DNA of 29,376 nucleotides from a virus: positions 1 through 29,376 of IMG/VR virus record IMGVR_UViG_3300037580_000056. One strand, written 5' to 3'. The notes under the pieces are model-generated. The model was not told the DNA's origin. It saw only the letters and a list, made by a program, of their open reading frames with translations, and ran no database searches. The position numbers were made by a program, and so were the translations under genes. Positions 6,842 to 24,781 of the stretch are shown here, in pieces. Numbering within the stretch: position 1 is the stretch's first letter; every line of letters begins with the position of its first letter.

Positions 6842-7125
6842 GGGCTATACCTGATCGATTCCTACGCAAAGGGGCGAGGCGGTGGATCAATCGGTCAATC
6901 AAGATTGCTAGGAACGAAGGCATGTTGGAATGGGGTCTGCCGTTGTTCGGCGCAGCGCAGTACGTTACGAATATAGCTGCACAGCGGGTCAAGATTCCCT
7001 GGACGACGGCTGAGTACAAGGCGGCCATGCAGTACTCCGCTCAGAGGTTGGAGTCCTATTACCCGACCAACAAGGGCAGTGACCGGAACGGGCTGCATCA
7101 CGAAGATAAGGCGATCCTGGAATGA
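6838..7125 (+). CDS. Small basic hypothetical protein
   Basis: This 95-residue protein starts at the ATG in the ATGA overlap with the primase gene, although the open frame extends further upstream inside that gene. The N-terminus is strongly basic (RFLRKGARRWINRSIK). The remainder is a mix of short helices ending in a His/Asp/Glu-containing tail. I do not recognise the family. The ATGA joints on both sides (6838 and 7122) support its reality and co-translation with primase and methyltransferase. A DNA-associated role would fit the charge, but nothing specific is visible. Confidence 0.68.
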   Translation: MRAIPDRFLRKGARRWINRSIKIARNEGMLEWGLPLFGAAQYVTNIAAQRVKIPWTTAEYKAAMQYSAQRLESYYPTNKGSDRNGLHHEDKAILE

Positions 7126-7757
7126 GCAACTTCCGGCCAACAGATGACAGTCCGTGGTTCGTCACCATCCAAGAGCTTCGTCGCCAATGCCTGGCGGTCG
7201 CGCTCTGCTCAGGGAAGACGCTCCTTGACGTGGGCTGCGGACGTGGCACGTTGAAGGATGTGGTGGGGCCGCTGATGACGTACACCGGCGTCGACATGGA
7301 GTTGGACAATGACGTGCCGTGTCAGCCGGGGCAACCGTTCGTTCAGGGCGACGTGTTCGACTACATGGAGGGTCAGGCGGCATCGTCGACGACGTGGGAT
7401 AACGTGGTCGCCTTGGAAGTCATCGAGCATGTAGACCCACGGCGGCAGCGTGAGTTCCTTGCCAGCATGTGGGCAGTCACGGCTCGGCGGATGATCTTCA
7501 CCACGGTGTCGCCTCACGTCCGGCATTGGTACCCGCATACCGATCTCATGGTCGGGGCGCATAACAACCCGTCACACAGCCGGGAGCTTGACGAACACCT
7601 CGTCCGGCGGTACATCCACGAAACGCTCACCGGGTACAAGCAGGTCATGGTGCTACGGAACTGGCTGCGCTCCAACGACGAGACGGTGTGGGACTTCGAC
7701 GGTGGCCCCTGCCATGGGTATCTCATCATGGTTGAGAAGGCTGGGTTTGGTTCATGA
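7122..7757 (+). CDS. Class I SAM-dependent methyltransferase
   Basis: This 211-residue protein has motif I LLDVGCGRG (residues 34-42), an acidic residue at the end of beta-2 (TGVDME near 57-62) and the motif IV region VVALEVIEHVDP near 92-104. These define a Rossmann-fold methyltransferase of the Methyltransf_11/23 type. No DNA-methylase catalytic motif (DPPY or PCQ) is visible, so a nucleobase-in-DNA target is not indicated. Small-molecule, protein or lipid substrates are possible. A His-rich stretch (HVRHWYPHTD near 128-137) may shape the substrate site. It is locked into the operon by ATGA overlaps at both ends. Confidence 0.82.
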   Translation: MSNFRPTDDSPWFVTIQELRRQCLAVALCSGKTLLDVGCGRGTLKDVVGPLMTYTGVDMELDNDVPCQPGQPFVQGDVFDYMEGQAASSTTWDNVVALEVIEHVDPRRQREFLASMWAVTARRMIFTTVSPHVRHWYPHTDLMVGAHNNPSHSRELDEHLVRRYIHETLTGYKQVMVLRNWLRSNDETVWDFDGGPCHGYLIMVEKAGFGS

Positions 7758-8161: not shown

Positions 8162-8245
8162 ACTCATCCTGTACGCACAGACGAACTACGCGCTCCGAGA
8201 TACGGATTCCCGTTTCTTGACCTATGAGCTACCAGGGGCGCATAC

Positions 8246-8641
8246 ATGCCGAAGACGAATCTATCCGGGGCAGTGGTACTCCGCGCCTCATTGATACCTA
8301 CTGCTTCGTACGTAGCGGCCGATCCCATCAACACCTTGATGGCTGACAGCGTGGCCATCTGGATCGACTACACCAAGGGGGCCGAGACGTCCCTTGAGGT
8401 CAAGGTCGAGTTCTCGCCGGACTGGCCCACCACGGCTGACGGTTCCTCCACATGGGTCCAAGAGACCAGCACCAGCGACGCGCTGGTTGAACATGCGTAC
8501 ACGGCTACCGGTGTATACCGGATCGCCCTGTCGGATGTCGTGGCGGGCAAGGTGCGCGTCTCTGTGAAGGGGACCACCGGTTCCAACTTCGTCGGGTCAC
8601 TGGCTGTGACGACGGCTCAGGTTCGCCGGAGGGCGCAGTGA
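8246..8641 (+). CDS. Hypothetical beta-rich protein, probable virion or fibre-associated
   Basis: The 131-residue product has almost only short strand-like segments rich in Ser, Thr, Val and Ala (AIWIDYTKGAETSLEVKVEFS, GVYRIALSDVVAGKVRVSVKG), which fit a small beta-sandwich. No signal peptide or catalytic motif is present. It is the first gene of a module that ends in a giant fibre-like protein, hence the virion guess. The SD AGGGG (about 8234-8238) precedes ATG 8246. Its stop shares one base with the next start (TGATG). Confidence 0.65.
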   Translation: MPKTNLSGAVVLRASLIPTASYVAADPINTLMADSVAIWIDYTKGAETSLEVKVEFSPDWPTTADGSSTWVQETSTSDALVEHAYTATGVYRIALSDVVAGKVRVSVKGTTGSNFVGSLAVTTAQVRRRAQ

Positions 8642-9138
8642 TGAACTGTACCGCTCTTAAGATGCGCTTGACCCTCGGGACTGACCCTGGAAAGCGGATG
8701 CTGTACCCCACGGCATTCTCGGAGCATATCCAGAACTCCGGCTTCACGAAGCTCTGCGACATCCAATACCCGCATGACAGCGGGTTCGACCACGGTGAGG
8801 AGGAGGAGTTCGTTCTCATCCTTGTCCCGACTGATGTTGCGGAGACGGTCTTGGCTAGTGCCACTGCCGACCAGTTTGAAGAACTGACTCTTGCTGAGTA
8901 CGACGAGGCGTATGCCGCCAGCTACGTCACCCGTGACTTCGTGGTGGACACGGACCTAATGTCTGCCATTACGAATCGGATCGCCATTGTCGGTAAGGAC
9001 TTGCTGACAACGGAGGAAGCCGAGGCTATGGACCCTGACAACGCCCGTAGAGGGATGACTCGTGAGAAGAAGACGGTCGCCACTCGGATGCCGTCCTTGG
9101 TCGTTGGGAACACTTCTGGCTATTCGCCGAGGGGCTGA
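8641..9138 (+). CDS. Hypothetical acidic protein
   Basis: The 165-residue product is not recognised. It contains an acidic cluster (HGEEEEF near 51-57), an Ala/Glu/Asp-rich helical middle and a basic C-terminal stretch (RRGMTREKKTVATR). I use ATG 8641, whose A is the last base of the previous stop. A GTG at 8638 would add one residue. The end also makes a TGATG joint with the glycosyltransferase gene. Co-translation with flanking genes suggests a role in the same module; no function is proposed. Confidence 0.68.
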   Translation: MNCTALKMRLTLGTDPGKRMLYPTAFSEHIQNSGFTKLCDIQYPHDSGFDHGEEEEFVLILVPTDVAETVLASATADQFEELTLAEYDEAYAASYVTRDFVVDTDLMSAITNRIAIVGKDLLTTEEAEAMDPDNARRGMTREKKTVATRMPSLVVGNTSGYSPRG

Positions 9139-9767
9139 TGCCAGATATTTCAGAGCAAGATTTCCCTGGTGTTCTACTGGCAATTCCGAACCTTGGGTGG
9201 ATTCAAACGCAGCTATGCGACTTGGTTCACCAGTGGCGTAGGTTCGGGATGCAGTACTATGCCCCGAAGGGATTGAAGCCCAACGACCACGCTAGAAATA
9301 GCTGTGTCCAGTACTTCCTGAACGAGACGGATGCGGAGTACCTGTTCTTCGTGGATCATGACACGATCCCGACCTTTCAAGCTCCGCTGGAACTACTGCG
9401 AGCCGGGAAGGACATCATCACTGGATTCACTCCCGTAGCCAGCATGGACGTCAATACGGGGTTGGTGGAGAAGTGGTACTCGGTATGCAGGTTCGGAGTT
9501 GCCAAGGACGGAACGACGGGGCTGGTGCCGATCAGCGAAGGAGCGGGGATCGAGAAGGTGGACGCCTGTGGCGCGTCCTGCCTGCTGATCCATAGGCGGG
9601 TCTTGGAAGCGGTGAAGTTCCCGTTCCGAGTCCGGTTCGATGAGGATGGGCTATCGGTTCTCGGACAGGACTTCTCGTTCTGTCTATCAGCCCTTGAGGC
9701 CGGGTTTGAAGTGTTCGCTCATTTCGACGTGCTGTGCGGTCACTACAAAGACGTAATGCTGAGGTAG
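9138..9767 (+). CDS. GT-A fold glycosyltransferase-like protein
   Basis: This 209-residue protein has an N-terminal strand (GVLLAIPNLG) and an RN-containing helix (HARNSCVQYFL) like those of phage GT2-type enzymes. A DxD motif, D73-H74-D75 (LFFVDHDTIP), binds a divalent metal and the nucleotide-sugar phosphate. Downstream, a GASCLLIHRRVLE segment and a DFSFCLSALEAGFEVFAH segment match the acceptor-side part (ED/QD motif) of these enzymes. Substrate is unknown. Candidate targets are virion proteins, such as the fibre encoded three genes later, or host surface glycans. It sits between two TG-overlapping genes. I do not see evidence that it acts on DNA. Confidence 0.74.
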   Translation: MPDISEQDFPGVLLAIPNLGWIQTQLCDLVHQWRRFGMQYYAPKGLKPNDHARNSCVQYFLNETDAEYLFFVDHDTIPTFQAPLELLRAGKDIITGFTPVASMDVNTGLVEKWYSVCRFGVAKDGTTGLVPISEGAGIEKVDACGASCLLIHRRVLEAVKFPFRVRFDEDGLSVLGQDFSFCLSALEAGFEVFAHFDVLCGHYKDVMLR

Positions 9768-9769
9768 CC

Positions 9770-10495: not shown

Positions 10496-13400
10496 TGGAA
10501 AAGCTGGTCAAGGGTGGATCTACCAACGTAGAGGTCGTCATCCGCATCGTGGACAACGTGACGGGGCTTCCTGAGACGGGAGTGGAGCATAATTCGACCG
10601 GCATTGATATGTGGTACCGGCGGGAAGGCGCGGCTCAGACCTCCATCACGGAGGCTGCCTTGGCAGCGTTGACGACAGCCCATACCGACGGTGGTATTGA
10701 GCATATCGGCCACGGGTATTACCGTCTTGACGTGCCTGACGCAGCGTTCGCCATCGGGGTTGACTCGGTAATGATCGGCGGCCACGTAGACGATATGCAG
10801 GTGATCGGTTGCTTGGTATCCATCGTCGGTGTGGACATGCGGACAGAGTGGACTGAGGCGCTTACTGAGTCGGCGCTGGTAGACGCCATCTGGGATGAAT
10901 CTGCTGGTACCCACGTAGCCACGGGGTCAACTGGTGAGGCACTTCGTGAACCTTGGGAAGCCGCTGTATGGCGTCGAGAGACTGCCCAGGCCGGAGCAAA
11001 CGGGTCGATCACGTTGGATGCATCGGCACTAGCAACTGACGATATCTACGTTGGTTCGTACGTCACCATCACTGCGAATACTGGTAAGCATCAGAGACGC
11101 CTTGTAACTGCCTACAACGGCACGACGAAGGTAGCTACGATCACTCCTGACTGGGTGACGAATCCCAACTCAGCCTCGATATTTTCTCTCGGTGCAGGGG
11201 CCTACGGTTTCGCACATGTCGATAGCTACTCTCCCGCAGGTCTAGTCGCTTTGGACACCCAGGTGGACACCGCCCTTGCGAATGCCGAGGCGGGGCTGGT
11301 AGACGCCATCTGGGATGAAGACATCTTGGCGGCCCATAACACTGCCGATACCGCAGGTAATTTCCTCAGTGATCTTGGTCAAGCTGTCGTCGTTCGACAT
11401 AACACTGCACAGGCGGGAACGACGACTACGATCACGTTGGATGCTTCTGCATCGGCTGTAGACGCTCAATATGGTGCCATGAACATCACCCTAGTAGGGG
11501 GTACTGGAGCCGGGCAGGCCAATACCATCATCGGCTACGTCGGCTCATCCAAGTTGGCTACTGTTGATCGGGGTTGGGCAGTGACCCCTGACGCTACGAC
11601 GATATTCGCCATCACCGCCGGAGGCATCGGGTACTTCAGGCTGGATAGCCTGAGTGGCGCCGGTGTTATTGCCCTCACCGACGCCATGTGGGACGAGCCG
11701 ACCTCGGGTCACTCCATCGCTGGTACGTTCGGTCAGATGACGGAAGACATCGACGCGGCCACAGCCCTCATCACGTTGGCTGCGATCAACGCTGAGGTCG
11801 ATACTGCCATCGCGGATGGCGAGGCGTCCATCGTCAGCGCTGTATGGGACAAGGCTACTGCCAGTCACTTAGCCGAGGGTACGGCTGGTGCAGCAATGGC
11901 TGCGATGGTCCATGACAGCGCCACTGCTCAGGCGGGCGGTGCGGCGACGATCACCCTGGAATCCGGTGCCAGCGCCTCGGACAACGCGTACAACGGGCTG
12001 CACCTCTCGATCATTGACGGCACGGGGATTGGACAGACGCGTCGCATCACCGACTACGCGGGTTCGACCAAGATCGCCACGGTGACGCCGAACTGGCACA
12101 CTCAGCCGGATGCCACGTCGGTCTATGCACTGGTCGCTTCCGGCTTCGTGGATGTCTACACGCACAGCACCACCGCGAAGGCGAACATCAACGCGGAAGC
12201 AGACACTGCGTTGGCGGATGGCGAGGCGTCCATTGCCGCCCTCGTTTGGGATCAGTTGAAGTCTGCCCATACGATTGCCGATTCATTCGGGGATTACCTT
12301 GATGACGAGATCAGTTCACGTTCAGACTTCAATGAGTTACTGAACCCAGTAGAACTTCTGAATAGCGGTGGATCGGCAGGTACTTCCGCTGCTGAACTGG
12401 TCGTTGACATGGCAGTACCCAATGCGGCCGCAATCAACGCCGAGGTGGATACGGCACTAGCAGACGCCAAGGCTGGATATGTAGACGCCATCTGGGATGA
12501 GGACGTTGTAGCCGCGCATAACACCGCCGACACCGCCGGTAAGCTGCTCAGTGACATCGACACTGCCACCGCCAACGCGACGCCCACCGCTGCGACCACT
12601 GCCGCGTTGGTTTGGGATCAGTTGAAGTCTGCCCATACGATTGCCGATTCATTCGGGGATTACCTTGATGACGAAATCACTAGTCGATCAACTTTCGACC
12701 CGACTGCTACTGGTGTAGAGTTGCTGAATAGCGGTGGTAGCGCCGGGACATCTGCTGCTGAACTCGTTGTCGATATGGCAGTTCCTAATGCAGCGGCGAT
12801 CAACGCCGAGGTGGATACGGCGCTTTCCGACGCCAAGGCTGGATATGTAGATGCCATCTGGGATGAGGATTTGGTTGCCGCGCACAATACGGCGGATACT
12901 GCCGGCAAGCTATTCTCGGATCTGAATGAGGTTCACATCGTACGCCGGAAAACCGCGCAGTCTGGTGCCTCCGGTAACATCCGGCTGGACGCCAGCGCCA
13001 GTTCGATTGACGACTTCTACAACAACATGCTTGTCACCATCGTATCGGCAACGGGGATCGGCCAGACCCGCACTATCACGGACTACACTGGGTCTACGAC
13101 TACTGCCGATGTCACCCCGAACTGGGTAACCGCCCCTGACGTTACCTCCATCTTCATCATCTCGCCGCAGGGTGAGCCTACGGTGACACTCGACTCCCTC
13201 GACACGACTGCTATTGCAGATGCTGTGTGGGACGCCGCTACCAGTAGCCATGCTGACGCGGGTTCATTCGGTCTAGCTGTTGCGGACATTGACGGAGCGA
13301 CCGCGAATGCCACCCCAACTGCCGCGACCACTGCCGCGTTGGTCTGGGATCAGTTGAAGTCTGCCCATACGATTGCCGATTCATTCGGAGACTATCTGGA

Positions 13401-16400
13401 TGACGAGATCAGTTCGAGGTCGGATTTTGACGAGACTACCGATCCCGTTGAACTTCTGGATAGCGGCGGTTCGGCTGGGACCAGTGCGGCTGAGTTGGTC
13501 GTTGACATGGCAGTACCCAATGCGGCGGCTATCAACGCCGAGGTGGATACGGCGTTGGCGGATGCGAAGGCGGGATATGTAGACGCTATCTGGGATGAGG
13601 ACGTTGTAGCCGCTCACAACACAGCGGACACAGCCGGGAAGTTGCTGTCTGACATCGACACAGCTACCGCTAACGCAACGCCCACCGCTGCGACCACAGC
13701 GGCGGCAGTGTGGAACGCGTTGAAGTCCGCACACACCACACCGGACACGTTCGGGGATTACCTTGATGACGAGATCAGTTCCCGCAGTGACTTCAATGAG
13801 GCGACAGACCCAGTAGAACTTCTGGACAGCGGTGGGTCTGCCGGAACATCCGCCGCCGAGTTGGTCGTGGACATGGCTGTGCCGACCACTGCCCAGATCA
13901 ATGCTGAGGTAGACACGGCGTTGTCTGACGCTCAGGCTGGCTATGTGGACGCCATCTGGGATGAAGACATCTTGGCGGCCCACAATACCGCAGATACAGC
14001 GGGCAAGATGCTCAGTGACTTGGCGCAGCTTCAAGTAATTCGGCGCAACACCGCTCAGGCTGGCGCATCCACCACGATCACTCTGGATGCTTCGGCATCG
14101 GCCACTACTGCCCTATATATAGGTTCCCACATCGTTATCGCATCCGGTACGGGGCAGTATCAGAGACGCCTAATCGTCGGCTATAACGGGTCCACTAAGG
14201 TAGCGACTATTAGCCCAACTTGGGCCGTTACTCCGGATTCCACATCAGTATTCGTTATTGGAGCCGGGGGCTATGGATATGCACGGCTAGATAGCATTAG
14301 TGGGGCAGGTATCATTGCGATTACTGACGCTATTTGGGATGAAGCTACTTCTGGTCATACCACTGGTGGAACCTACGGGCTGGCCGTAGCAGACATCGAC
14401 ACTTCAACTGCGAATGCTACGCCTACGGCAGCGACCATTGCTGATGCAGTCTGGGACGAGCTTACGTCGGGTCATGCCATATCCGGTTCGTTCGGTGAAC
14501 AGATGCAGGACATCGACACGGCTGCTGCCGCCGCGTCTACTCATAGTGCAGCAGACGTATGGGCGGTCGGCACCCGAGACATCACCGGCGGGACTATAGA
14601 CACCGTTGGGGACAAGACAGGCTATGCACTGTCTACGGCTGGGGTAGATGCCATCTGGGATGAGGATGTCGTAGCGGCGCACAATACGTCTGACACCGCA
14701 GGAAAGCTGCTATCGGACATAGATACGGCGACTGCGAACGCCACCCCGACCGCAGCGACCATTGCCGCCCTCGTTTGGGATCAGTTGAAGTCTGCCCATA
14801 CGATTGCCGATTCATTCGGAGACTATCTGGATGACGAGATCAGTTCACGTTCAGACTTCAATGAGGCGACAGACCCAGTAGAACTTCTGGATAGCGGTGG
14901 GTCTGCCGGAACATCCGCTGCTGAACTCGTTGTGGACATGGCAGTACCCAATGCGGCCGCTATTAACGCCGAGGTGGATACGGCACTAGCCGATGCCAAG
15001 GCTGGATATGTAGACGCTATCTGGGATGAACTGGCGGCGGGCCACACGACCACGAACACCTTCGGAGACTATCTGGATGCCGAGGTCAGCGCCATTGATA
15101 CTACGACTACGCCCACGGTAGCTGAGATTTCCGATGGCGTTTGGAACGAGACAGCGAGTGGTCATGTCAGTTCCGGCACTACAGGTGAGTTCTTGCGGGA
15201 CGGACACGATGCTGCGGTGGTTAGACGAAGTACCGCCACAGCCGGTGCCACGGGGAGTATTACCCTTGACGCAAGCGCCTCTACTGTCAACGACTACTAC
15301 AACGACTCTCTGATCGTCACGGTCAGTGGGACCGGCTCAGGGCAGGCGCGGACGATCGCCGACTATGTAGGCTCGTCTAAGGTGGCATCGGTGACCCCGA
15401 ACTGGATCACTACCCCGGACGCGACCACCGTCTTTCTCATCACCCCCTCCGGGTCGACACCAATTGAGATCGACCTGACGGCGGACACGACTGCCATCGC
15501 GGCGGCCGTGTGGGACGAGGCGGCTTCCGGTCACACCACAGGTGGCACGTTCGGAAAGTATATGGATACATTCAGCACCAACATCGACGCGACCATGAGT
15601 AGTAGATCGGACTTCGATGAGACGTCTGACCCGGTGGAGTTGCTTGATAGCGGTGGTAGCGCAGGAACATCGGCGGCTGAACTCGTTGTTGATCTCGCGG
15701 TACCTACGGCAGCGACGATTGCAGATGCAGTCTGGAATGAGTCTCAGAGTGGTCACACCAATGCTGGATCGTTCGGGCTGTATCTCGATGCGGTCGTGTC
15801 CAACATCGACACCACGACGACCCCAACCGTCGCCCTGATAGCGGACGCTGTTTGGGACGAACTCACTGCCGCTCACGCGGGCGCTGGCACCTTCGGTCTG
15901 TCGGTCGCGTCGGCGGCCTCCGCGTCAGCAGTTGCCGACGCTGTGCTGGACGAACTCATCACGGATCACACCACGACCGATACGTTCGGGTGGATGATGA
16001 ATGAGATTAAGGAGAAGACCGACCTAATCACGACTGGAACCGTCACCGTCACGACGCCGGTCACGTCGACCAATGCCATCGTCCTCGTGCAGGGAGACGA
16101 GTACGCAAACGCTGATAGCCGGGCGTTGTCGTTCTCGAGTACCGGGTGGCCAGACCTGACCGGGTCCACGGTGACGCTCACCGCGAATGAGGTTCGTGGG
16201 ACGGGGACCATGAGTGTGTCCGGGACGCTGTCCAGCGTGGGTGGGGCGACGCAGACCATTTACTTTGAACCGACGGCAGTTCAGACAGCGGCGCTCACAC
16301 TTGGGCAGGACGCCTACAAGTTCGGAGTCCAGGCGGTCTTGCAGACATCTTCGAACCGGGTTACGCTGATAACCAGTTACATCACCGTGAACGAGGATCA

Positions 16401-16404
16401 GTAA
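10495..16404 (+). CDS. Giant repetitive fibre-like protein (1969 residues)
   Basis: This is the largest gene in the window. Residues ~1-105 form a distinct N-terminal domain (VEVVIRIVDNVTGLPETGV, then HGYYRLDVPD) that resembles heads of phage structural proteins. The middle (about 120-1840) is built from three repeat types. These are a short AVWDExxSGHxxxGTFG unit, a longer unit carrying ELLxSGGSAGTSAAELVVD (six copies), and six ~85-residue beta modules beginning VxRxxTAQAGA and ending xxTxPDATSVFxI. The last ~120 residues form a BppU-like beta domain (VLVQGDEYANAD onward), which fits a baseplate or fibre attachment site. Composition is rich in Ala, Asp, Thr and poor in Cys. A tail fibre, baseplate or cell-contact adhesin is the likely role. 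The start overlaps the previous stop (TAATG). Confidence 0.8.
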   Translation: MEKLVKGGSTNVEVVIRIVDNVTGLPETGVEHNSTGIDMWYRREGAAQTSITEAALAALTTAHTDGGIEHIGHGYYRLDVPDAAFAIGVDSVMIGGHVDDMQVIGCLVSIVGVDMRTEWTEALTESALVDAIWDESAGTHVATGSTGEALREPWEAAVWRRETAQAGANGSITLDASALATDDIYVGSYVTITANTGKHQRRLVTAYNGTTKVATITPDWVTNPNSASIFSLGAGAYGFAHVDSYSPAGLVALDTQVDTALANAEAGLVDAIWDEDILAAHNTADTAGNFLSDLGQAVVVRHNTAQAGTTTTITLDASASAVDAQYGAMNITLVGGTGAGQANTIIGYVGSSKLATVDRGWAVTPDATTIFAITAGGIGYFRLDSLSGAGVIALTDAMWDEPTSGHSIAGTFGQMTEDIDAATALITLAAINAEVDTAIADGEASIVSAVWDKATASHLAEGTAGAAMAAMVHDSATAQAGGAATITLESGASASDNAYNGLHLSIIDGTGIGQTRRITDYAGSTKIATVTPNWHTQPDATSVYALVASGFVDVYTHSTTAKANINAEADTALADGEASIAALVWDQLKSAHTIADSFGDYLDDEISSRSDFNELLNPVELLNSGGSAGTSAAELVVDMAVPNAAAINAEVDTALADAKAGYVDAIWDEDVVAAHNTADTAGKLLSDIDTATANATPTAATTAALVWDQLKSAHTIADSFGDYLDDEITSRSTFDPTATGVELLNSGGSAGTSAAELVVDMAVPNAAAINAEVDTALSDAKAGYVDAIWDEDLVAAHNTADTAGKLFSDLNEVHIVRRKTAQSGASGNIRLDASASSIDDFYNNMLVTIVSATGIGQTRTITDYTGSTTTADVTPNWVTAPDVTSIFIISPQGEPTVTLDSLDTTAIADAVWDAATSSHADAGSFGLAVADIDGATANATPTAATTAALVWDQLKSAHTIADSFGDYLDDEISSRSDFDETTDPVELLDSGGSAGTSAAELVVDMAVPNAAAINAEVDTALADAKAGYVDAIWDEDVVAAHNTADTAGKLLSDIDTATANATPTAATTAAAVWNALKSAHTTPDTFGDYLDDEISSRSDFNEATDPVELLDSGGSAGTSAAELVVDMAVPTTAQINAEVDTALSDAQAGYVDAIWDEDILAAHNTADTAGKMLSDLAQLQVIRRNTAQAGASTTITLDASASATTALYIGSHIVIASGTGQYQRRLIVGYNGSTKVATISPTWAVTPDSTSVFVIGAGGYGYARLDSISGAGIIAITDAIWDEATSGHTTGGTYGLAVADIDTSTANATPTAATIADAVWDELTSGHAISGSFGEQMQDIDTAAAAASTHSAADVWAVGTRDITGGTIDTVGDKTGYALSTAGVDAIWDEDVVAAHNTSDTAGKLLSDIDTATANATPTAATIAALVWDQLKSAHTIADSFGDYLDDEISSRSDFNEATDPVELLDSGGSAGTSAAELVVDMAVPNAAAINAEVDTALADAKAGYVDAIWDELAAGHTTTNTFGDYLDAEVSAIDTTTTPTVAEISDGVWNETASGHVSSGTTGEFLRDGHDAAVVRRSTATAGATGSITLDASASTVNDYYNDSLIVTVSGTGSGQARTIADYVGSSKVASVTPNWITTPDATTVFLITPSGSTPIEIDLTADTTAIAAAVWDEAASGHTTGGTFGKYMDTFSTNIDATMSSRSDFDETSDPVELLDSGGSAGTSAAELVVDLAVPTAATIADAVWNESQSGHTNAGSFGLYLDAVVSNIDTTTTPTVALIADAVWDELTAAHAGAGTFGLSVASAASASAVADAVLDELITDHTTTDTFGWMMNEIKEKTDLITTGTVTVTTPVTSTNAIVLVQGDEYANADSRALSFSSTGWPDLTGSTVTLTANEVRGTGTMSVSGTLSSVGGATQTIYFEPTAVQTAALTLGQDAYKFGVQAVLQTSSNRVTLITSYITVNEDQ
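10962..15450 (+). repeat. Six ~85-residue beta modules within the giant protein
   Basis: Modules begin near 10962, 11385, 11905, 12930, 14030 and 15211. Each encodes TAQ/TATxGA, then an ITLDASAS-type strand, a G-T-G-Q turn (xGTGxxQxR), a YxGSxKxATVxP strand and xPDATxxFxI. Spacers between them are the AVWDE-type units. The set is seen directly; independent folding is inferred. Confidence 0.75.
12247..14819 (+). repeat. Four identical 44-bp direct repeats inside the giant gene
   Basis: An identical 44-base tract starting TGGGATCAGTTGAAGTCTGC and ending in ATTCATTCGG occurs at 12247-12290, 12613-12656, 13345-13388 and 14776-14819. It encodes WDQLKSAHTIADSFG. Surrounding copies of the same protein repeat differ at many synonymous positions, so the identity here is unusual and suggests recent duplication or gene conversion. 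Confidence 0.85.
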
Positions 16405-16448: not shown

Positions 16449-17276
16449 ATGCCATTGACCGTTTCGGAATCCTTCTTCTCCATCCAGGGAGAAGGGCGAT
16501 GGGCCGGTACCCCCGCTGTATTCCTGCGTCTCGCCGGGTGTAACCTCGAATGCCCAGGTTGGTCGTACCGCGCACCACCTACGCTTGAATCTACCATTTC
16601 CACCAGTCCGGACGGTGGGGCGATCTATCACAAGACCGACGTCACGCCGGGGGAACACCTCGGTTGCGACACGAAGCTCGTCTGGCGGCGCGGCGACAAG
16701 TACGAGTTCGAAGACCTGATCGCTGAGTGGGAAGAGAAGGGCTGGAACCACGCCTTCGCCCACAACGACGCCGACCTGATCGTGACCGGCGGCGAACCTC
16801 TCCTGCATCAGAAGCAACTGATCGAGTTCCTCCCCATCTGGGAGGACACTGCCTGTACCCAGTTCTCGAACGCGCAGTGCCAGATCGAAACCAACGGGAC
16901 CATCGTCCCGGATTGGAAACTGGCGAACCTCGTCCACCGATGGAACGTCTCCCCTAAGCTGTCCTCAGCGGGCGACCCGGTGGAGAAGCGAGTCAATCAG
17001 GAAGCTATTGCCTGGTTCAAGCAGCGCAGCATCGACTTTACGAGCGTCGGGTGGAAGTTCGTTGTGACCTGCAAAGCAGACGTGAAGGAGATGGAGGCTG
17101 TCTACCTCGAACCGAACGACATCTGGCGAGAGTGGGTCTGGCTCATGCCGGAAGGCGGTACTCGGGAACGGCTCCGCGAGACTGCCCCGGCTGTCGTGGA
17201 ACTCTGCAAGGAGTTCGGGTACCAGTACTCACCCCGACTACACATCGACATCTGGAATGAGGCCACCGGTGTCTGA
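16449..17276 (+). CDS. queE: 7-carboxy-7-deazaguanine synthase (radical SAM, QueE)
   Basis: QueE converts 6-carboxytetrahydropterin to 7-carboxy-7-deazaguanine using S-adenosylmethionine and a 4Fe-4S cluster. Visible marks are the family start SESFFSIQGEGRWAGTPAVFLRLAGCNLEC, here residues 5-35, with the QGEG and cluster cysteines C31 and C35. The third Cys, C73, lies in GCDTK, which aligns with the WCDTK of classical QueE, so a ~37-residue insertion separates it from C35. GGEP (114-117) is the SAM-binding motif, and ETNGT near 142-146 is also typical. The length of 275 residues is longer than the ~220 of E. coli. It is the first gene of the deazaguanine operon; no obvious promoter precedes it in the 44-base gap. 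Confidence 0.92.
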   Translation: MPLTVSESFFSIQGEGRWAGTPAVFLRLAGCNLECPGWSYRAPPTLESTISTSPDGGAIYHKTDVTPGEHLGCDTKLVWRRGDKYEFEDLIAEWEEKGWNHAFAHNDADLIVTGGEPLLHQKQLIEFLPIWEDTACTQFSNAQCQIETNGTIVPDWKLANLVHRWNVSPKLSSAGDPVEKRVNQEAIAWFKQRSIDFTSVGWKFVVTCKADVKEMEAVYLEPNDIWREWVWLMPEGGTRERLRETAPAVVELCKEFGYQYSPRLHIDIWNEATGV

Positions 17277-17805
17277 ACGATCTGCCAATCTCTACTCTCG
17301 GATAGTGATTCGTGAGGCAATCCAGAAGCACGTTCCCACTGTGGACAAGCTCATCTCCGAGCGGCCGGACGATAGCCCTGTCATGTTCCTCGGTGTCCTG
17401 AACGGCTGCTATCCGTTCATGGTCGACTTTCTCCGGGCGTCCCGCCATGCGGAGGGGGCGCTCATCTCGCATGTGGCGGTCAGAGACAACAAGCGGGTGT
17501 ACAACTTCGACGCCGAGGAATGTGTCGGCTACACGATCATCGTTCTCGATGACATCTGTGACCGGGGGGACACCCTTCACCATATCGTCCGGTACTTGGA
17601 AGGCGTTGTAGGACCCGATGGGGAAGTGTTGTCCGTGGTCCTGTGTGACCGGCCCGAACGACACCCACAGTTCACGTCGACTCTGGCGATGCTGACCGTA
17701 CCTGAGACGGCGGGGTGGCTGTTCGGGTACGGCATGGACGGCTACGACGGTTGCGACCGATACAGCCCAGACATCCGTCACTGTGTGCCGAGGGTCGAGG
17801 TATGA
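17269..17805 (+). CDS. Hypoxanthine/guanine phosphoribosyltransferase-like protein
   Basis: These enzymes join a purine base to PRPP, giving IMP or GMP. The PRPP loop is VLDDICDRGDTL (near residues 91-102), a variant of the usual DxxDTGxT. An earlier FLGVLNGCYPFMVDFLR resembles the HPRT loop I region (VGVLKGA...DLxR). A C-terminal GYGMDGYDGCDRYSPDIRH matches the GYGLDxxxxxRxxxxI base-binding end. I choose GTG 17269, because GAGG (17259-17262) lies 6 bases upstream; ATG 17257 lacks an SD. The length of 178 residues suits the family. It overlaps queE by 8 bases and queD by ATGA. Its base specificity cannot be read from sequence. Recycling of guanine released by DpdA is a hypothesis. Confidence 0.82.
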   Translation: MSERSANLYSRIVIREAIQKHVPTVDKLISERPDDSPVMFLGVLNGCYPFMVDFLRASRHAEGALISHVAVRDNKRVYNFDAEECVGYTIIVLDDICDRGDTLHHIVRYLEGVVGPDGEVLSVVLCDRPERHPQFTSTLAMLTVPETAGWLFGYGMDGYDGCDRYSPDIRHCVPRVEV

Positions 17806-18275
17806 AAACCACTGTCACGAAAGAGATTCAGTTCGACATGGGGCATCGTGTCCCGTTCCATGAGTCGAAGTGCCAGAACCCGCACGGCCACCGATACCGT
17901 GCGGAAATGGGTATCTCCGGGCGCATCATCACGGACCACGGCCACCCTGAAATGGGGATGATCGTAGACTACGGCCACATGAAGACGATACTCATGGAGA
18001 TCGTTCATGACCCGCTTGACCACGGCTTTATGGTTTGGGAACTGGACACCAACATGATGCCGTTCGTCCGTGACTCGCAGAATGATCACGGATGGAAGTG
18101 GGTCGTCGTTCCGTTCATCCCCACGGCCGAGGAAATCTCACGCTGGCTGTTCAGAAAGCTCGAGCGCCGCGTGACCGAAATCTATGGAGACGACGTGTGG
18201 CTAACGCATCTGTCACTCTGGGAAACCCCAACTTCAGTGGCGACGACGACATTCGGCGACGCAAGTCTGAAGTAG
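17802..18275 (+). CDS. queD: 6-carboxytetrahydropterin synthase (QueD)
   Basis: QueD converts dihydroneopterin triphosphate to 6-carboxy-5,6,7,8-tetrahydropterin, the second step to preQ0. The zinc ligands H15, H28 and H30 (FDMGHRVPFH and NPHGHRY) and the catalytic Cys C24 (ESKC) are all present. The HGFMV and PTAEEISRWLF segments match the family's D-H and helix elements. At 157 residues it is slightly longer than the ~120 of E. coli. The ATG lies in an ATGA overlap with the phosphoribosyltransferase gene. Its last 79 bases also encode the start of folE in another frame. Confidence 0.93.
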   Translation: MKTTVTKEIQFDMGHRVPFHESKCQNPHGHRYRAEMGISGRIITDHGHPEMGMIVDYGHMKTILMEIVHDPLDHGFMVWELDTNMMPFVRDSQNDHGWKWVVVPFIPTAEEISRWLFRKLERRVTEIYGDDVWLTHLSLWETPTSVATTTFGDASLK

Positions 18276-18799
18276 CTGGCCTCACGGGTCAGTTCCTGGC
18301 GGCCATTGGCGAGTACGGTGTGGAAGGCCGTACGGAGAACACGCCTGACCGCGTGGCTCGGTTCTGGTTGGACTGGCTGAACACGTCGGATGTCGAGGTG
18401 ACTACGTTTCCCAGCGATGGCTACGACGAGATGGTCGTGGTGCGTGACATCAGCTTCTACTCGGTCTGTGAGCATCACCTTCTTCCGTTCCATGGGACTG
18501 CCGACGTCGCCTACATCCCGAACAAGCGGATCGTGGGACTCAGCAAAATCCCCCGTATTGTCGAACACTTCTCCCGCCGGCTGCAGAACCAAGAGCGCAT
18601 CACACGCCAGGTGGCTGACGCAATCACCGAGTACGTCGAGCCGTGGGGCGTGGGCGTGGTGCTACGCGCCCGTCATATGTGCATGGAGATGCGGGGAGTG
18701 AAGCAGCAGGCGGAGACCGTGACCAGTCACTTGCTGGGGTCGTTCCGGCAGGACGACAAGCAACGCGCCGAGTTCCTAGCCCTATCAAGGAGCGGATGA
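18197..18799 (+). CDS. folE: GTP cyclohydrolase I (FolE), GTG start inside queD
   Basis: FolE converts GTP to dihydroneopterin triphosphate, the entry step to preQ0 as well as to folate. Zinc-binding residues C91, H94 (SVCEHHLLPFHG) and C162 (RHMCMEMRG) are spaced as in the E. coli enzyme (the two Cys 71 apart). TENTPDRVARFW and GLSKIPRIVEHFSRRLQNQE are also strongly typical. There is no ATG before the conserved domain in this part of the frame. GTG 18197 is preceded by GGAG (18186-18189) at 7 bases, giving a 200-residue protein. A longer ATG 18092 form would be buried in queD and add residues without family resemblance. The stop overlaps queC. Confidence 0.93.
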   Translation: MANASVTLGNPNFSGDDDIRRRKSEVAGLTGQFLAAIGEYGVEGRTENTPDRVARFWLDWLNTSDVEVTTFPSDGYDEMVVVRDISFYSVCEHHLLPFHGTADVAYIPNKRIVGLSKIPRIVEHFSRRLQNQERITRQVADAITEYVEPWGVGVVLRARHMCMEMRGVKQQAETVTSHLLGSFRQDDKQRAEFLALSRSG

Positions 18800-19674
18800 T
18801 GTCCCTGTTCCTCAATACGCTCGGTACTCTGTTCTCCGGTGGCCACATCAAGTTGCCGGAACAGTACCGGACTATCGTCGGGGAAAGTGTCACCGCGAAG
18901 GAAATCCTCGAGCAAGATCCCGACATCCTCGATCGGATAGAATGGCTCCCGAATCAGGAACACATCGTGTTGGCGTCAGGAGGTCTGGACTCCACCATCG
19001 CTGGGCTTCAGTACCCAACGGCGCAGCCGGTCTACATCGATCTCGGTCAAGCGTACGCCCACCACGAGATCAAGGCTGCCAGGACGATCTTCCCCCATCT
19101 GTGGGTTATCCGGTACGACACTATGTACCGCGCTTACCAGCACATCATCCCGATGCGGAACGCCATCGTCCTTCGTCTGGCGGGGGAACTGGTGACGCAG
19201 TACGCTTGGGCAGCCAAGCCTAGAATTGGGACCATCACGTTCTCCTGCGTGGAGGGGGAGACGCCGACGTCGGGCGGCGACAAGTCCATGGACTTCATGG
19301 ATGAGATCGGGTCCTGGCGTTGGGGGCCGGTGTTCAAGCTCCGTACGCCCTTGGTGAAGCTGTCCAAGGGCGCGGCCATCCGCATGTACCTTGACGGTGG
19401 CGGTGACGAGGCTCTCCTGCACCAGACAGTTTCGTGTTTCACTCCCCATGAGGGGGACCACTGTGGGGAATGCCGGGCGTGTTTCCGTCGCTGGATTGCC
19501 GGGCAGTACGCAGGGGTCGAGTTCGCGTTCGCTACCGACCCGTTGGGGTCCGAGTGGCCTGACTACTACCTAATTCGCATGGACCGGGCGTTGAAGACGG
19601 GTGACTTCACGCTCTACACGAAGCATCGCTGCGAGTACGTGACCGGCGTCCTGAACCCCTATCGAGGAATGTGA
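18799..19674 (+). CDS. queC: 7-cyano-7-deazaguanine (preQ0) synthase (QueC)
   Basis: QueC converts 7-carboxy-7-deazaguanine to preQ0 with ATP and ammonia. The PP-loop ATP motif SGGLDS is at residues 60-65. The zinc site C213, C222, C225, C228 (the last three in CGECRAC) is intact. The 291-residue length exceeds the ~230 of standalone QueC, mainly through ~50 N-terminal residues and insertions. No second amidotransferase domain (as in Gat-QueC) is visible. I choose ATG 18799 because AGGAG (18788-18792) lies 6 bases upstream; ATG 18796 is only 3 bases from it. The product joins FolE, QueD and QueE to give a full preQ0 pathway. Confidence 0.92.
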   Translation: MSLFLNTLGTLFSGGHIKLPEQYRTIVGESVTAKEILEQDPDILDRIEWLPNQEHIVLASGGLDSTIAGLQYPTAQPVYIDLGQAYAHHEIKAARTIFPHLWVIRYDTMYRAYQHIIPMRNAIVLRLAGELVTQYAWAAKPRIGTITFSCVEGETPTSGGDKSMDFMDEIGSWRWGPVFKLRTPLVKLSKGAAIRMYLDGGGDEALLHQTVSCFTPHEGDHCGECRACFRRWIAGQYAGVEFAFATDPLGSEWPDYYLIRMDRALKTGDFTLYTKHRCEYVTGVLNPYRGM

Positions 19675-19675
19675 C

Positions 19676-20851
19676 ATGGCGAACGCACGGGAGATTCCTG
19701 GCGGTGCCGTCAGAGTAGCTATCGTTGGCGTGGGGAACTGCGCATCAGCGTTCGTGCAGGGGCTGGTCTACTACGCCGAGCCTGGTGCAGGGGACTCGGG
19801 GATCATGATGCCGGAGATCGGCGGCTATACCATCTCGGATATCTACCCGGTCGCTGCGTTCGATGTGAACGAACGGAAGGTCGGGCAGTACTTGAGTGAC
19901 GCTATCTGGGCTGAGCCGAACTGCTGTGTCCCATTCCTTGACGAGTTCGAATGGCGTAGTGACATCAATGAGTCTCACGCCGGGAACGTGATCGTCCAGC
20001 AGGGGCCTGAGAGCGATGGGGTCGCCCAACACTATAGAGACACACTTTCGCCTCTGGAACCGTCTGGTGACGACCAGGGACGTATGGAGGTCGTCGCTGC
20101 GTTGAGGGAGTCCAAGACGGATGTCCTCATCAACTTCCTGCCGGTCGGTTCGGAGAAGGCGTCCCACATCTACGCCCGTGCCGCGTTGGAGGCGGGCGTC
20201 GCGTTCGTGAACTGTATCCCGACGTTCATCGCGTCGGACCCCGAGGGCTACTTCTTTCATGCGTTCGATGAGGCGGGCTTGCCACTTCTGGGCGACGACA
20301 TCAAGAGCCAGGTCGGTGCCACTATCACGCACCGGACGCTCATGCAGATGATTGAGCGCCAAGGGCAGGAGGTCACGTCCTCCTACCAGTTGAACGTCGG
20401 TGGGAACACGGACTTCCAGAACATGCTGGACCGTTCTCGGTTGGAGATGAAGCGTGAGTCCAAGCAACGGGCGGTGACGTCAGCCATCCCCTACGACTTT
20501 GACATGTACGCCGGGCCGTCAGACTACGTGCCTCATCTGCATGACATGAAAGTCTGCTTCATCCGTATCGAAGGTACTCAGTTCGGCGGGGTACCGTTCG
20601 AGATGGACATCAAACTCAAGGTCCATGACAGCCCCAACTCGGCGGGAGTCGTGCACAACGCCGTCCGCGTGGCCAAGGCGATCATGGACAAATACTCGGA
20701 TCTCGATCCTGGCTTGAAGACTTCCCGCCGAGCCGTCAGAGAATTGTCAACCTTAGCGTCCGCGTGTTTCTTCAAGCACCCACTGACTCAGATGGATGAG
20801 ACATATGCCAGAGGCAGACTCCAGTCTTTGCTCAACATCGGCAGAGAGTAA
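19676..20851 (+). CDS. ino1: myo-Inositol-1-phosphate synthase (INO1/MIPS-type)
   Basis: This enzyme isomerises glucose 6-phosphate to inositol 1-phosphate through an NAD-dependent oxidation-aldol-reduction. The NAD-binding start VRVAIVGVGNCAS (residues 12-24) is followed by FDVNERKVG, a Cys/Pro-rich patch, a substrate-site segment KSQVGATITHR (near 210-220), NVGGNTDFQNM (near 240-250) and SPNSAGVVHNAVR (near 320-332). All are marks of the actinobacterial-type MIPS family, and 391 residues is close to its usual length. Active-site Lys and Asp residues appear kept in these segments. It begins one base after queC ends and overlaps dpdA by 56 bases. Its placement in a DNA-modification operon has no known explanation. 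Confidence 0.92.
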   Translation: MANAREIPGGAVRVAIVGVGNCASAFVQGLVYYAEPGAGDSGIMMPEIGGYTISDIYPVAAFDVNERKVGQYLSDAIWAEPNCCVPFLDEFEWRSDINESHAGNVIVQQGPESDGVAQHYRDTLSPLEPSGDDQGRMEVVAALRESKTDVLINFLPVGSEKASHIYARAALEAGVAFVNCIPTFIASDPEGYFFHAFDEAGLPLLGDDIKSQVGATITHRTLMQMIERQGQEVTSSYQLNVGGNTDFQNMLDRSRLEMKRESKQRAVTSAIPYDFDMYAGPSDYVPHLHDMKVCFIRIEGTQFGGVPFEMDIKLKVHDSPNSAGVVHNAVRVAKAIMDKYSDLDPGLKTSRRAVRELSTLASACFFKHPLTQMDETYARGRLQSLLNIGRE

Positions 20852-21734
20852 GTTCAACGAGCGACCGCGTTGCTTGAGTTCCTTCTGGTACCTAAGGAAC
20901 CGCCCACTTCGGGACACTATCAGGGACACGTACGGTGGGAAGCCGCCTGCGTTCATGCTCGACTCAGGAGCGTTCACCGCTTGGAACGGTGGGCATGAAC
21001 TGGAACTCCAGTCGTACATCGACTTCATCCAAGAGTACCGGGACTTGTTCACGGTCTACGTGGCACAAGACGTCATCATGGACTGGAAGGCGTCCCGCGA
21101 GAACACTGAGGAAATGGAACGGCAGGGGTTGAAGCCCATCCCGGTCTACCACGCTGGGTCGCCCCTCAAAGAGTTCGACCGGATCATGGAACGCTATGAC
21201 TACTTCGCCCTGGGTGGGATGGCGTTCTGGCCTGCGGCGAAACGCCGGGCGATCATGCTCGACTGGTGGAAGCGGATCGAGGAACGCAATTACGAGGGGC
21301 GTGTCCACGGCTTCGCAGTCACCAGCATGGAATTGATGCGGACGTTCCCGTGGTATAGCGTGGACAGTAGCACTTGGACACAGCCGTTCAGGTGGGGATC
21401 GCTGACGCTGTTCAACGGGGGAATCATCAAGCAGGTCAAGGTCAACAACCGGCGGGCGATGTTCCGTCAAGAGCATCTGCTACGTCGGTACGGATATGAT
21501 ATTGCCCGGCTCATCAGTGATAATCGTAGTCGTGAGAGGCGTCAGGAGTTGGCCTGTATCTCCCTCATGAACTGGATGGACTGCGAGGATTGGATTACTG
21601 AGCGGAGAGGCAGCCAGTTCAGGATGTACTTCGCTCACACGATTGAATGGAACGAGTGGCCGCCCATCGTAGACCTCGTGAGGGAACAGTACCGTGCCAG
21701 AGACCGCCAGCGACACCGCCGCCGAACATCGTAA
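20796..21734 (+). CDS. dpdA: DpdA-like DNA-guanine transglycosylase (phage type)
   Basis: DpdA enzymes, relatives of tRNA-guanine transglycosylase (TGT), exchange guanine in DNA for a 7-deazaguanine. Seen here: FMLDSGAFTAWN (residues 53-64), in which D56 matches the DSGGF general-base Asp of TGT; YVAQDVIMDW near 88-97; HGFAVTS near 172-178; and VDSSTW with D190, the probable nucleophile. The C-terminal zinc motif of TGT (CxCxxC...H) is absent. At 312 residues it is compact. Start is ATG 20796 or 20805; neither has a strong SD, and coupling to the preceding gene is likely. Position after queC and MIPS, and 41-base overlap with a ParB-like gene, support the role. I infer insertion of preQ0 into phage DNA. 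Confidence 0.87.
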   Translation: MRHMPEADSSLCSTSAESKFNERPRCLSSFWYLRNRPLRDTIRDTYGGKPPAFMLDSGAFTAWNGGHELELQSYIDFIQEYRDLFTVYVAQDVIMDWKASRENTEEMERQGLKPIPVYHAGSPLKEFDRIMERYDYFALGGMAFWPAAKRRAIMLDWWKRIEERNYEGRVHGFAVTSMELMRTFPWYSVDSSTWTQPFRWGSLTLFNGGIIKQVKVNNRRAMFRQEHLLRRYGYDIARLISDNRSRERRQELACISLMNWMDCEDWITERRGSQFRMYFAHTIEWNEWPPIVDLVREQYRARDRQRHRRRTS

Positions 21735-22482
21735 GGTCATCCCCATCCGGCTCAAGTCCGTTGAGTTTGAGCCGATAGACGATCTCGTGGCTGTGGACGA
21801 CAATCCACAGGAACACGACATCGACGGGATCAAGAGGTCGATCCTCGAGTTCGGGTACATGCTGCCCATCATCATCAACCTCGACGGGAGGATTGTCGGT
21901 GGGCATGGCAGAAAAACCGCGCTATTGGAACTCCGGGACGAGGGCTACGAGCTTGAAGGCGGGGGAAGGATTCCCGTCCTGCGGGGGGACTTCACTGAGC
22001 GAGAGGCAGCGGTTCTGTTGCCTGGGCTGAACGAGTTGCAGGGCTACCCCGACCCGACCCGGTTGGGCGCGTACATCAACGAGCGGATGTCCGAGTTGGG
22101 CATGGAACTGGCCGATTTCGAACCCGCCGGCTACAGCCTGGGTCGGCTCGAGGAACTGTCCTCCCTCACCGACACCATGGAAATCTTGCAGGAGAAGATG
22201 GCGAAGGTGGCCGGCCAATCTTCTGACGGTCCTTCGGGGGCGCATCTGGTTATCAGGCTGACATCCTCTCAGGCGTACTTGTTCGAGGCGGTCTCCGGTT
22301 GGATCATTGACGACGAGGATACAATCGGTGCGATTGCCGCCGAGTACGGCAATGACAACGAGGTGGGCAATGCCATCTTCCGAATGTGCCAGATGATCTA
22401 CGCGGATCCGGACGTTCGTGCGGAGATAGGCCCCATAGAGGAACCTGTCGATGACTATGGATCTACCGACGAAGACGAGTGA
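21694..22482 (+). CDS. ParB-like N-terminal domain protein
   Basis: This 262-residue protein has a ParB/Srx-type N-terminal fold: the DLVAVDDNPQEHDIDGIKRSI strand-helix (near 22-45), FGYMLPIIINLDGRIVGGHGR with the GGHGR phosphate/CTP-binding box (near 65-75), and a VLRGDFTEREAAVLLPGLNE end (near 95-115). Phage copies of this fold are often called ParB-like nucleases and occur near methyltransferase, DpdA or terminase genes. The C-terminal 120 residues are acidic and have no helix-turn-helix that I recognise. The start is GTG 21694, with GAGGG (21680-21684) 9 bases upstream. The gene overlaps dpdA by 41 bases and terS by 32, so its role may link base modification and packaging. Confidence 0.82.
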   Translation: MPETASDTAAEHRKVIPIRLKSVEFEPIDDLVAVDDNPQEHDIDGIKRSILEFGYMLPIIINLDGRIVGGHGRKTALLELRDEGYELEGGGRIPVLRGDFTEREAAVLLPGLNELQGYPDPTRLGAYINERMSELGMELADFEPAGYSLGRLEELSSLTDTMEILQEKMAKVAGQSSDGPSGAHLVIRLTSSQAYLFEAVSGWIIDDEDTIGAIAAEYGNDNEVGNAIFRMCQMIYADPDVRAEIGPIEEPVDDYGSTDEDE

Positions 22483-24610: not shown

Positions 24611-24781
24611 ATGTTCGGATGGATAAAGTCCAAGACGGTTCTCTCTGCAATTGCCGTCGCGGGGATTGGGGTGCTTACCGCAACCGGAGTAGAAATCCCA
24701 GATGGGGTTCTCGAAATCGCTGGCGCACTCGGACTCATTGGGGTACGCCATGCCATCCATAAGCAGTCCGGTGACCGCTAA
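24611..24781 (+). CDS. Small membrane protein (56 residues), possibly holin-like
   Basis: The product begins FGWIKSKTVLSAIAVAGIGV, with a basic N-terminus and a hydrophobic stretch at residues ~10-24. A second less regular hydrophobic segment, VLEIAGALGLIGV, lies at ~33-45, and the tail is basic (RHAIHKQSGDR). This is the common make-up of small phage holins or superinfection-exclusion proteins with one or two membrane segments. No lysin gene is adjacent, so holin function is not proven. The SD GGAG is within the hairpin at 24583-24606. It overlaps the sigma-factor gene by 32 bases. Confidence 0.72.
   Translation: MFGWIKSKTVLSAIAVAGIGVLTATGVEIPDGVLEIAGALGLIGVRHAIHKQSGDR

Follow-up and report, generated by a model that had tools for sequence, protein, structure and literature searches.

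A phage 7-deazaguanine DNA-modification operon carrying a purine phosphoribosyltransferase and an inositol-1-phosphate synthase-family gene: possible guanine recycling and cyclitol decoration

Why should a phage operon for a modified DNA base include a purine phosphoribosyltransferase (PRTase) and a protein of the inositol-1-phosphate synthase (MIPS) family? The question is raised by IMG/VR virus record IMGVR_UViG_3300037580_000056, a stretch of 29,376 bases (the window) that was treated as a fragment. Seven plus-strand genes, overlapping or abutting between positions 16449 and 21734, encode in order QueE, an HPRT-like PRTase, QueD, FolE, QueC, MIPS and a DpdA-like DNA-guanine transglycosylase (Table 1). 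All seven gene calls of the initial annotation held in position and strand, and the presence of the PRTase and MIPS within the same run of genes was confirmed by coordinates and family matches. The path from GTP to preQ0 and on into DNA is known from other phages, and the core of the operon is of this known kind; what appears to be new, judging from the titles and abstracts searched, is the gene combination and a general link between MIPS and DNA hypermodification.

Whether the two additional enzymes are passengers now has a revised answer. Each recurred next to genes for DNA modification in phages that are not related, and a check of 50 random viral records turned up neither family, so that, on gene context, they are not passengers in the operon. 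From this context we infer guanine recycling by the PRTase and cyclitol decoration of the base by way of MIPS, and to the 7-deazaguanine operon with both these functions, taken as a whole explanation, we assign a probability of roughly 0.55.

The preQ0 core and the transglycosylase

Family searches found homologues of FolE, QueD, QueE and QueC together in the window. By homology these would convert GTP to preQ0, and DpdA would exchange guanine in DNA for the 7-deazaguanine. The metal-binding residues of FolE (CEHH and HMCM) lined up with those of a solved FolE, and the Cys and HGH of QueD with 7v0f. QueC aligned weakly with 3bl5 (E 0.0044) over its zinc cysteines, and SGGLDS is present in its sequence. 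QueE kept three Cys and GGEP with the unusual spacing CX3CX37C: 37 residues separate the second and third Cys, against 2 in 28 of the 72 QueE open reading frames (ORFs) scored, 38 of which fitted no pattern. This gap was the longest among the 34 ORFs in which it could be read. QueE matched a phage family (phrog_2076), matched the solved QueE 6nhl weakly and missed the NCBIfam QueE equivalog cut-offs.

The domain of FolE begins at about 18270, so its true start may be the GTG at 18197, and the true starts of both FolE and DpdA may lie slightly downstream of the longest-ORF starts. Neither QueF, ArcS nor Gat-QueC was found among the window proteins scanned, which represent part of the ORFs, and since the window is a fragment the lack of QueF and Gat-QueC holds for the fragment only. 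FolE itself yielded weak QueF matches below the cut-off.

The 20796-21734 product is, as modelled, a member of the tRNA-guanine transglycosylase (TGT)/DpdA superfamily with a TGT-like TIM barrel and Asp pair. It gave no Pfam match and fell in phrog_887, and in a BFVD search the queuine tRNA-ribosyltransferase of Sonali ranked first (1.8e-18). Its structure was predicted with a pLDDT of 86.9. In a VIA ranking drawn from Foldseek's 1000 matches TGT placed first and filled all of the best 50 rows, with 248 residues of 1iq8 superposed at Z 17.0 and a root-mean-square deviation of 3.2; Foldseek's own best 50 PDB rows contained no TGT, were mostly other TIM barrels and all had E above 0.001. A PDB profile search ranked the DNA-guanine transglycosylase 7ui4 first, with a weak match (E 0.12). 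Residues D56 and D190, which from the role of these Asp we take to be the TGT catalytic pair, were invariant across 22 aligned sequences and aligned to 7ui4 in weak, sub-threshold segments. The possibility that a homology search would place this product in an unrelated family was not borne out, as phrog_887, 7ui4, the VIA rows and BFVD agree.

Synthesis of preQ0 from GTP with DpdA-type insertion, as first proposed, is thus well supported by sequence, by predicted structure and by the group 2 preQ0 DNA-modification loci of phages Rosebush and CAjan, as described in the accessible part of Hutinet et al. (2019, PMC6884629). Compared with these loci, the window adds a separate HPRT-like PRTase and MIPS.

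MIPS beside DNA-hypermodification genes

The MIPS of the window matched PF01658 with 104.8 bits (cut-off 27), was identical at 89 of 100 columns near-invariant in 69 cellular MIPS and retained 13 of 15 conserved Lys/Asp; the two exceptions, D328N and K343L, fall in or close to the C-terminal part, which is divergent and uncertainly aligned. Against the mycothiol INO1 equivalog TIGR03450 it scored 332.6 bits, under the 638-bit cut-off, and it is therefore labelled MIPS-family and not a proven inositol-phosphate synthase. In the PDB it was nearer to Ino1 (1gr0, 302 bits) than to Ari2 (6k96, 208 bits), a protein of the same family fold that we take to belong to the aristeromycin pathway.

When viral_contigs was scanned with one protein at a time (DpdA, MIPS or the PRTase), the patterns were too specific and no relatives came back; relatives of DpdA and MIPS were gathered by alignment-based scans (records numbered L below). 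The best 80 of 119 MIPS relatives were analyzed. Amino acid:DNA transferase (ADDT), for which all 80 records were searched, was found in 41. In L037-L086 it was present in 22 records, every match exceeding the curated cut-off, and in L008-L036 in 19, with 10 matches exceeding it. The helical domain of 5-hydroxymethyldeoxyuridine (5-hmdU) DNA kinase, HMUDK_hel, likewise sought in all 80, was found in 29 records, 20 without and 9 with ADDT (the match in L016 being below the cut-off), so that 61 of the 80 had at least one pyrimidine-hypermodification gene. In six further records (L035, L037, L043, L058, L083 and L087) our own models placed DpdA-like or QueC genes at most 10 kb from MIPS, and neither ADDT nor HMUDK_hel was found in them; no MIPS record was seen to combine a deazaguanine gene near MIPS with ADDT or the kinase. 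In total 67 of the 80 records carried a DNA-modification gene. The remaining 13 were negative, several of them being short fragments, and two (L070 and L071) still matched our own one-sequence ADDT model. ADDT, HMUDK_hel, MIPS and DpdA (phrog_887) were found in 0 of 50 random viral records; these were longer records from a list of 80 obtained with a random 14-mer. Once sequences were clustered at 93% identity (window excluded, phage Cr30 and L137 included), 50 of 54 viral MIPS had one gene type, namely ADDT in 29, kinase without ADDT in 14 and deazaguanine genes in 7; L013, L034, L068 and L076 had none.

A separate class of 5-hmdU kinase loci was considered and dropped, because the kinase domain occurred in 9 of 38 ADDT records; ADDT and kinase loci were therefore counted as one pyrimidine class. 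L051, L065, L074 and L077 (about 7000-16300) encode MIPS without ADDT and a protein with the helical domain of 5-hmdU DNA kinase, plus a C5-cytosine-methylase-like protein in L051, L074 and L077 and a thymidylate synthase homologue in L077.

MIPS is rare in INPHARED, where it occurred in 18 records (16 Stenotrophomonas phages and 2 of Caulobacter phage Cr30). In Cr30, ADDT (1.3e-52), a TAGT-like gene (8.5e-4, below cut-off) and MIPS are consecutive, with a HAD gene two genes on; here and in many viral contigs MIPS likewise stands beside phage DNA-hypermodification enzymes, with pyrimidine chemistry instead of the DpdA of the window. Among Menderavirus (Stenotrophomonas phages Moby, IME-SM1 and Ps15), the que locus of Moby has MIPS, as the window does, among folE, queC, DpdA-like and queE genes (order: folE-MIPS-HAD-queC-dpdA-like-queE), and the MIPS of the window and Moby are 42% identical over 80%. 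Moby differs in being a T4-like phage, in the small HAD gene between MIPS and queC, in a MIPS of another clade, in having no PRTase in the 17 kb read and in a transglycosylase that is not a phrog_887 match. The accessible part of the Ps15 paper (PMC9025141) reads the que genes as tRNA modification, remarks that phage genomes containing 7-deazaguanines can escape restriction, and assigns MIPS a bacterial origin. The architecture nearest to that of the window was seen in L035:7732-13886, with the order ParB-like, DpdA, QueC, MIPS, a 110 aa protein, a Vut_1 (YhhQ-type) transporter and terminase-like genes; the ParB-like gene was read from sequence, and the 110 aa protein, with a weak GTP cyclohydrolase PHROG match, is maybe QueF-like.

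The deazaguanine-linked MIPS do not form one lineage. On a quick IQ-TREE tree of 124 rows the eight of them, window included, needed 7 changes, at least 6 of which were forced by starred branches; shuffled labels needed 7.8 on average, and 75 of 500 shuffles were as low as the observed value, indicating that these MIPS are scattered. The window, L035 and L137 were placed among cellular-type MIPS, and L037, L043, L058, L083 and Moby in a phage clade, although the end branch of 1.86 makes the exact placement of the window unsure. The tree suggests that MIPS joined 7-deazaguanine loci several times, and such repeated recruitment into one kind of locus is an argument for a common function.

MIPS would, as its family suggests, convert glucose 6-phosphate to inositol phosphate; from context, this would then lose its phosphate and be joined to the 7-deazaguanine, either before insertion or after it, and the end product would be a 7-deazaguanine bearing a cyclitol, which would protect the DNA from nucleases. 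As judged from neighbouring genes, MIPS often has a phosphatase-like partner. Behind many MIPS of the phage type comes a small protein that carries HAD motifs (DxDG, TGR, SGxHK and EDD), within 1 kb in 25 of the 54 clusters. Pfam gave it no HAD match, and PHROGs placed it with polynucleotide kinase (1.1e-6). Its model (pLDDT 87.2) reached VIA Z scores of 10.5-11.2 to Pnkp and T4 polynucleotide 3'-phosphatase, and Foldseek found no match to it below E 0.001. In the cellular-type MIPS-ADDT loci scanned (L012, L017 and L021) there was a dual-specificity-phosphatase-like gene, above the cut-off in L012 and L017, as well as a 5-hmdU-kinase-like gene in L012 and L021 (below the cut-off) and a thymidylate-synthase homologue in L021. 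No phosphatase-like neighbour was seen in the window, for which the enzyme may lie outside the fragment or be supplied by the host.

For the transfer step, candidates suggested by gene content are methyltransferases (L037, L043, L058, L137 and the window) and GT4-like glycosyltransferases (L058, by a sub-cut-off Pfam match, and L083, by similarity to L058). Each of the other seven deazaguanine-MIPS loci had a QueC-like ORF adjacent to MIPS or close by (gaps of 0 to 1994 bases), and on the QueC tree the MIPS-linked QueCs grouped: 7 rows needed 3 changes against a shuffled mean of 6.8, with 0 of 500 shuffles as low (the L137 QueC-like ORF, without SGGxDS, was excluded). Given the long branches and the risk of false joins in that part of the tree, this clustering is only a hint that QueC might be the coupling enzyme.

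Taken together, these contexts suggest that phage bases are probably decorated with a cyclitol for which MIPS is the source, and that the base of this phage may be inositol-bearing rather than plain preQ0. The initial annotation had predicted preQ0 unless another enzyme acts later; that order of preference is turned round, since the presence of MIPS makes later decoration the likelier outcome, with a chemistry that is predicted only. More broadly, we put forward tentatively, at a little short of even odds, that phages use a MIPS of their own to make inositol or a related cyclitol, which they attach to DNA bases in both pyrimidine (ADDT and/or 5-hmdU kinase) and 7-deazaguanine (DpdA) loci, the base of the window being a cyclitol-bearing, queuosine-like (Q-like) hypermodified 7-deazaguanine. 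No title or abstract in the literature searched links an inositol synthase to phage DNA modification, and the word "inositol" is absent from the main text of Hutinet et al. (2019, PMC6884629), in its accessible part, as it is from the accessible parts of a carboxymethylcytosine paper and a Rhodococcus phage note.

The strongest competitor, which we consider unlikely, though more credible than any other, is that the DNA contains plain dPreQ0, as in Rosebush and CAjan, and that MIPS, merely located in the operon, has its role in host-directed metabolism (supply of osmolyte, phosphatidylinositol or mycothiol). The only NCBIfam model matched by MIPS is indeed mycothiol INO1, below its cut-off, and 13 of the 80 viral MIPS records had no hypermodification gene in the searches made. 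Against this reading stand the DNA-modification genes in 67 of 80 MIPS records, compared with 0 of 50 random records for ADDT, HMUDK_hel or phrog_887, and the repeated entry of MIPS into deazaguanine loci.

The phosphoribosyltransferase and its fusion to FolE

The PRTase of the window matched PF00156 with 38.8 bits against a cut-off of 26.3, and its PDB matches, from 2.6e-7, were mainly HPRT/HGPRT. Scores under the HGPRT equivalog cut-offs (TIGR01203, 40.9 against 150 bits; NF006605, 43.8 against 181) allow it to be named HPRT-like only. Since its single INPHARED match was distant (27% identity), its own subfamily was not open to context analysis, and the context of PRTases was followed in 80 viral DpdA loci, drawn from at least 572 relatives with near copies kept (for example L101, L102 and L106).

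An N-terminal PRTase domain was fused to FolE in 35 of the 70 FolE ORFs of these loci. The fused domain has a phosphoribosyl pyrophosphate (PRPP) motif, DD..D[ST]G.T, followed by one of the W..[FY][PFW]WE type, a pair that occurred in 0 of 1551 ORFs of at least 100 residues in random viral contig stretches. Pfam recognized FolE in 8 of 8 fused proteins tested and the PRTase in 7 of 8, 3 of them above the cut-off. A profile of ten fused domains matched the purine PRTase 1vdm (4.9e-13) and E. coli xanthine-guanine PRTase, Gpt (1a95-1a98, about 6e-10), and its alignment to 1vdm displays the motif W-I-x-F-P-W-E, which in Gpt is purine-binding. Examples of Gpt-like fusions in the DpdA loci (L088-L161) are L093:10931-11803 and L121:7084-7986. 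Five more DpdA loci had a separate PRTase directly 5' of FolE (L128, L132, L149, L152, with a gap of about 240 bases, and L159), and in L108 a PRTase directly precedes DpdA. With 50 loci of 80 used in each set, PF00156 was found in 19 of 50 DpdA records (13 above the cut-off) against 0 of 50 random viral records.

Cultured phages have the fusion as well: 381 INPHARED records matched, 33 of them covering at least 80% of the fusion (30 annotated as GTP cyclohydrolase, 3 unannotated). Gpt-FolE fusions of phages VpKK5, PaMx25 and Quinobequin-P09 tie a purine PRTase to FolE, as does the operon of the window; its PRTase differs in being a separate gene of the HPRT type, so that the same job is assigned to it from a different PRTase subfamily. 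A literature search on PRTase with GTP cyclohydrolase returned no title or abstract about the fusion. In the accessible part of Hutinet et al. (2019, PMC6884629) Quinobequin-P09 belongs to the DpdA group, and the word "phosphoribosyl" is absent from the main text. Two FolE ORFs of the DpdA loci, L118:4854-6434 (527 residues) and L142:5879-7708 (610), have a long insert just before the catalytic CEHH that resembles an intein, and the L142 insert has an HNH-like stretch in its translation.

These associations suggest that the PRTase likely returns the guanine released by DpdA to GTP for FolE. It would join guanine to PRPP, giving GMP, which host kinases would convert to GTP. Each modified base frees one guanine and costs one GTP, so the loop would close; the recurrent Gpt-FolE fusion points to such a loop, and recycling would explain why phage FolE so frequently carries a PRTase. 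It is also conceivable, but improbable in our view, that the PRTase acts on the 7-deazaguanine itself, giving the ribonucleotide of preQ0 or of 7-carboxy-7-deazaguanine (CDG), or on another purine, shifting host pools with no guanine recycling. HPRT-family enzymes can be promiscuous, and the protein of the window is divergent enough to miss the NCBIfam equivalog cut-offs; against this, it is FolE to which the PRTase domain is repeatedly fused, and that domain matches xanthine-guanine PRTase, purine-binding motif included.

The notion of a carbocyclic nucleotide, in which an Ari2-like MIPS would make a five-membered cyclitol phosphate for the PRTase to join to 7-deazaguanine, draws on the second PDB match of MIPS, to the five-membered-cyclitol-phosphate synthase Ari2, and on the PRTase in the same operon, and is very improbable given the far stronger match to Ino1, the location of the fused, Gpt-like PRTases in loci without MIPS, the requirement of DpdA for a free base and not a nucleotide, and the finding, which itself lowers the idea, of no PRTase by our own models within the other seven deazaguanine-MIPS loci (of two such records searched with PF00156, L035 had none and L137 two, outside the locus, the better about 5 kb past its end).

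Points against the proposal, other genes of the window and implications

Several observations weigh against the combined explanation of guanine recycling and cyclitol decoration. The score of MIPS under the equivalog cut-off and its long branch mean that its product could be another cyclitol phosphate. The nearest folds of the HAD protein are polynucleotide 3'-phosphatases, so that its substrate may not be inositol phosphate, and its gene was not seen in the window, L035 or L137. No inositol-transferring enzyme was common to all eight deazaguanine-MIPS loci. MIPS was present in just 2 of 80 DpdA loci and is therefore not required for the core, and phrog_887 itself was found in 3 of 50 MIPS records searched whole (L035, L037 and L137; the set comprised 48 of the 80 MIPS records, Cr30 and L137). 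The DpdA-like genes of Moby, L058 and L083, the first recognized by its annotation as queuine tRNA-ribosyltransferase and the others by a mixed model of our own (57 bits), belong to other TGT-type branches outside phrog_887, and L043, a 14-kb contig, shows QueC only. The PRTase of the window resembles HPRT and not Gpt, and in its PRPP loop an Arg takes the position usually occupied by Ser or Thr.

Table 1. Coordinates and family matches of the operon genes and of other candidate genes in the window.
Feature	Position	Strand	Matches
QueE-like radical S-adenosylmethionine (SAM) 7-carboxy-7-deazaguanine synthase	16449..17276	+	phrog_2076 2.6e-53; PDB 6nhl 7.7e-8
HPRT-like purine PRTase, PRPP loop LDDICDRGDT	17257..17805	+	PF00156 7.4e-10, above cut-off
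QueD (6-carboxytetrahydropterin synthase), ATG 17802	17802..18275	+	PF01242 3.1e-28; phrog_2389 1.9e-31
FolE (GTP cyclohydrolase I)	18092 (or GTG 18197)..18799	+	PF01227 9.1e-61; PDB 1is7 1.3e-46
QueC (preQ0 synthase), no Gat domain seen	18796..19674	+	PF06508 1.6e-14
Inositol-1-phosphate synthase, MIPS/Ino1 family	19676..20851	+	PF01658 3.4e-30; TIGR03450 2.9e-99; PDB 1gr0
DpdA-like DNA-guanine transglycosylase	20796 (or TTG 20874)..21734	+	phrog_887 3e-50
ParB-like protein, overlaps DpdA	21694..22482	+	phrog_498 1.8e-14; phrog_620 4.7e-14
Class I SAM methyltransferase, distant from operon	7122..7757	+	PF13489 3.9e-8
Glycosyltransferase-like protein	9138..9767	+	PF13641 0.031 (below cut-off); phrog_1574 3.1e-10; phrog_34859 6.7e-4

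DpdA is followed by genes for a ParB-like protein, a terminase small-subunit-like protein, the terminase large subunit, a sigma factor and the portal. ParB-like genes adjoin dpdA also in Sonali (gene 86) and L035, and the ParB-like protein could possibly belong to the modification module. More speculatively, the methyltransferase at 7122..7757 might be an additional modification enzyme and the glycosyltransferase-like protein at 9138..9767 a decorating enzyme; of the two PHROGs matched by the latter, phrog_1574 is of unknown function and phrog_34859 is a glycosyltransferase. The sigma-70-family factor between the terminase and portal genes is encoded at 24702-25307 (PF04542, 1.2e-14). Upstream of the operon, a large gene (10495-16404) encodes a repetitive protein of 1969 residues, possibly a fibre, and no tandem array was found in this gene at the DNA level. 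A protein with a CxxCxxCC zinc- or iron-chelating domain (PF03692, 4.1e-5) is encoded at 340-1047.

If the proposal is true, it would explain the MIPS gene to which the description of Ps15 assigns a bacterial origin, and would predict a new DNA base in the cultured phages Moby, IME-SM1, Ps15 and Cr30. It would also provide a testable link between inositol synthesis and DNA protection, and a cyclitol-bearing 7-deazaguanine would be a class of DNA modification without description in the literature searched.

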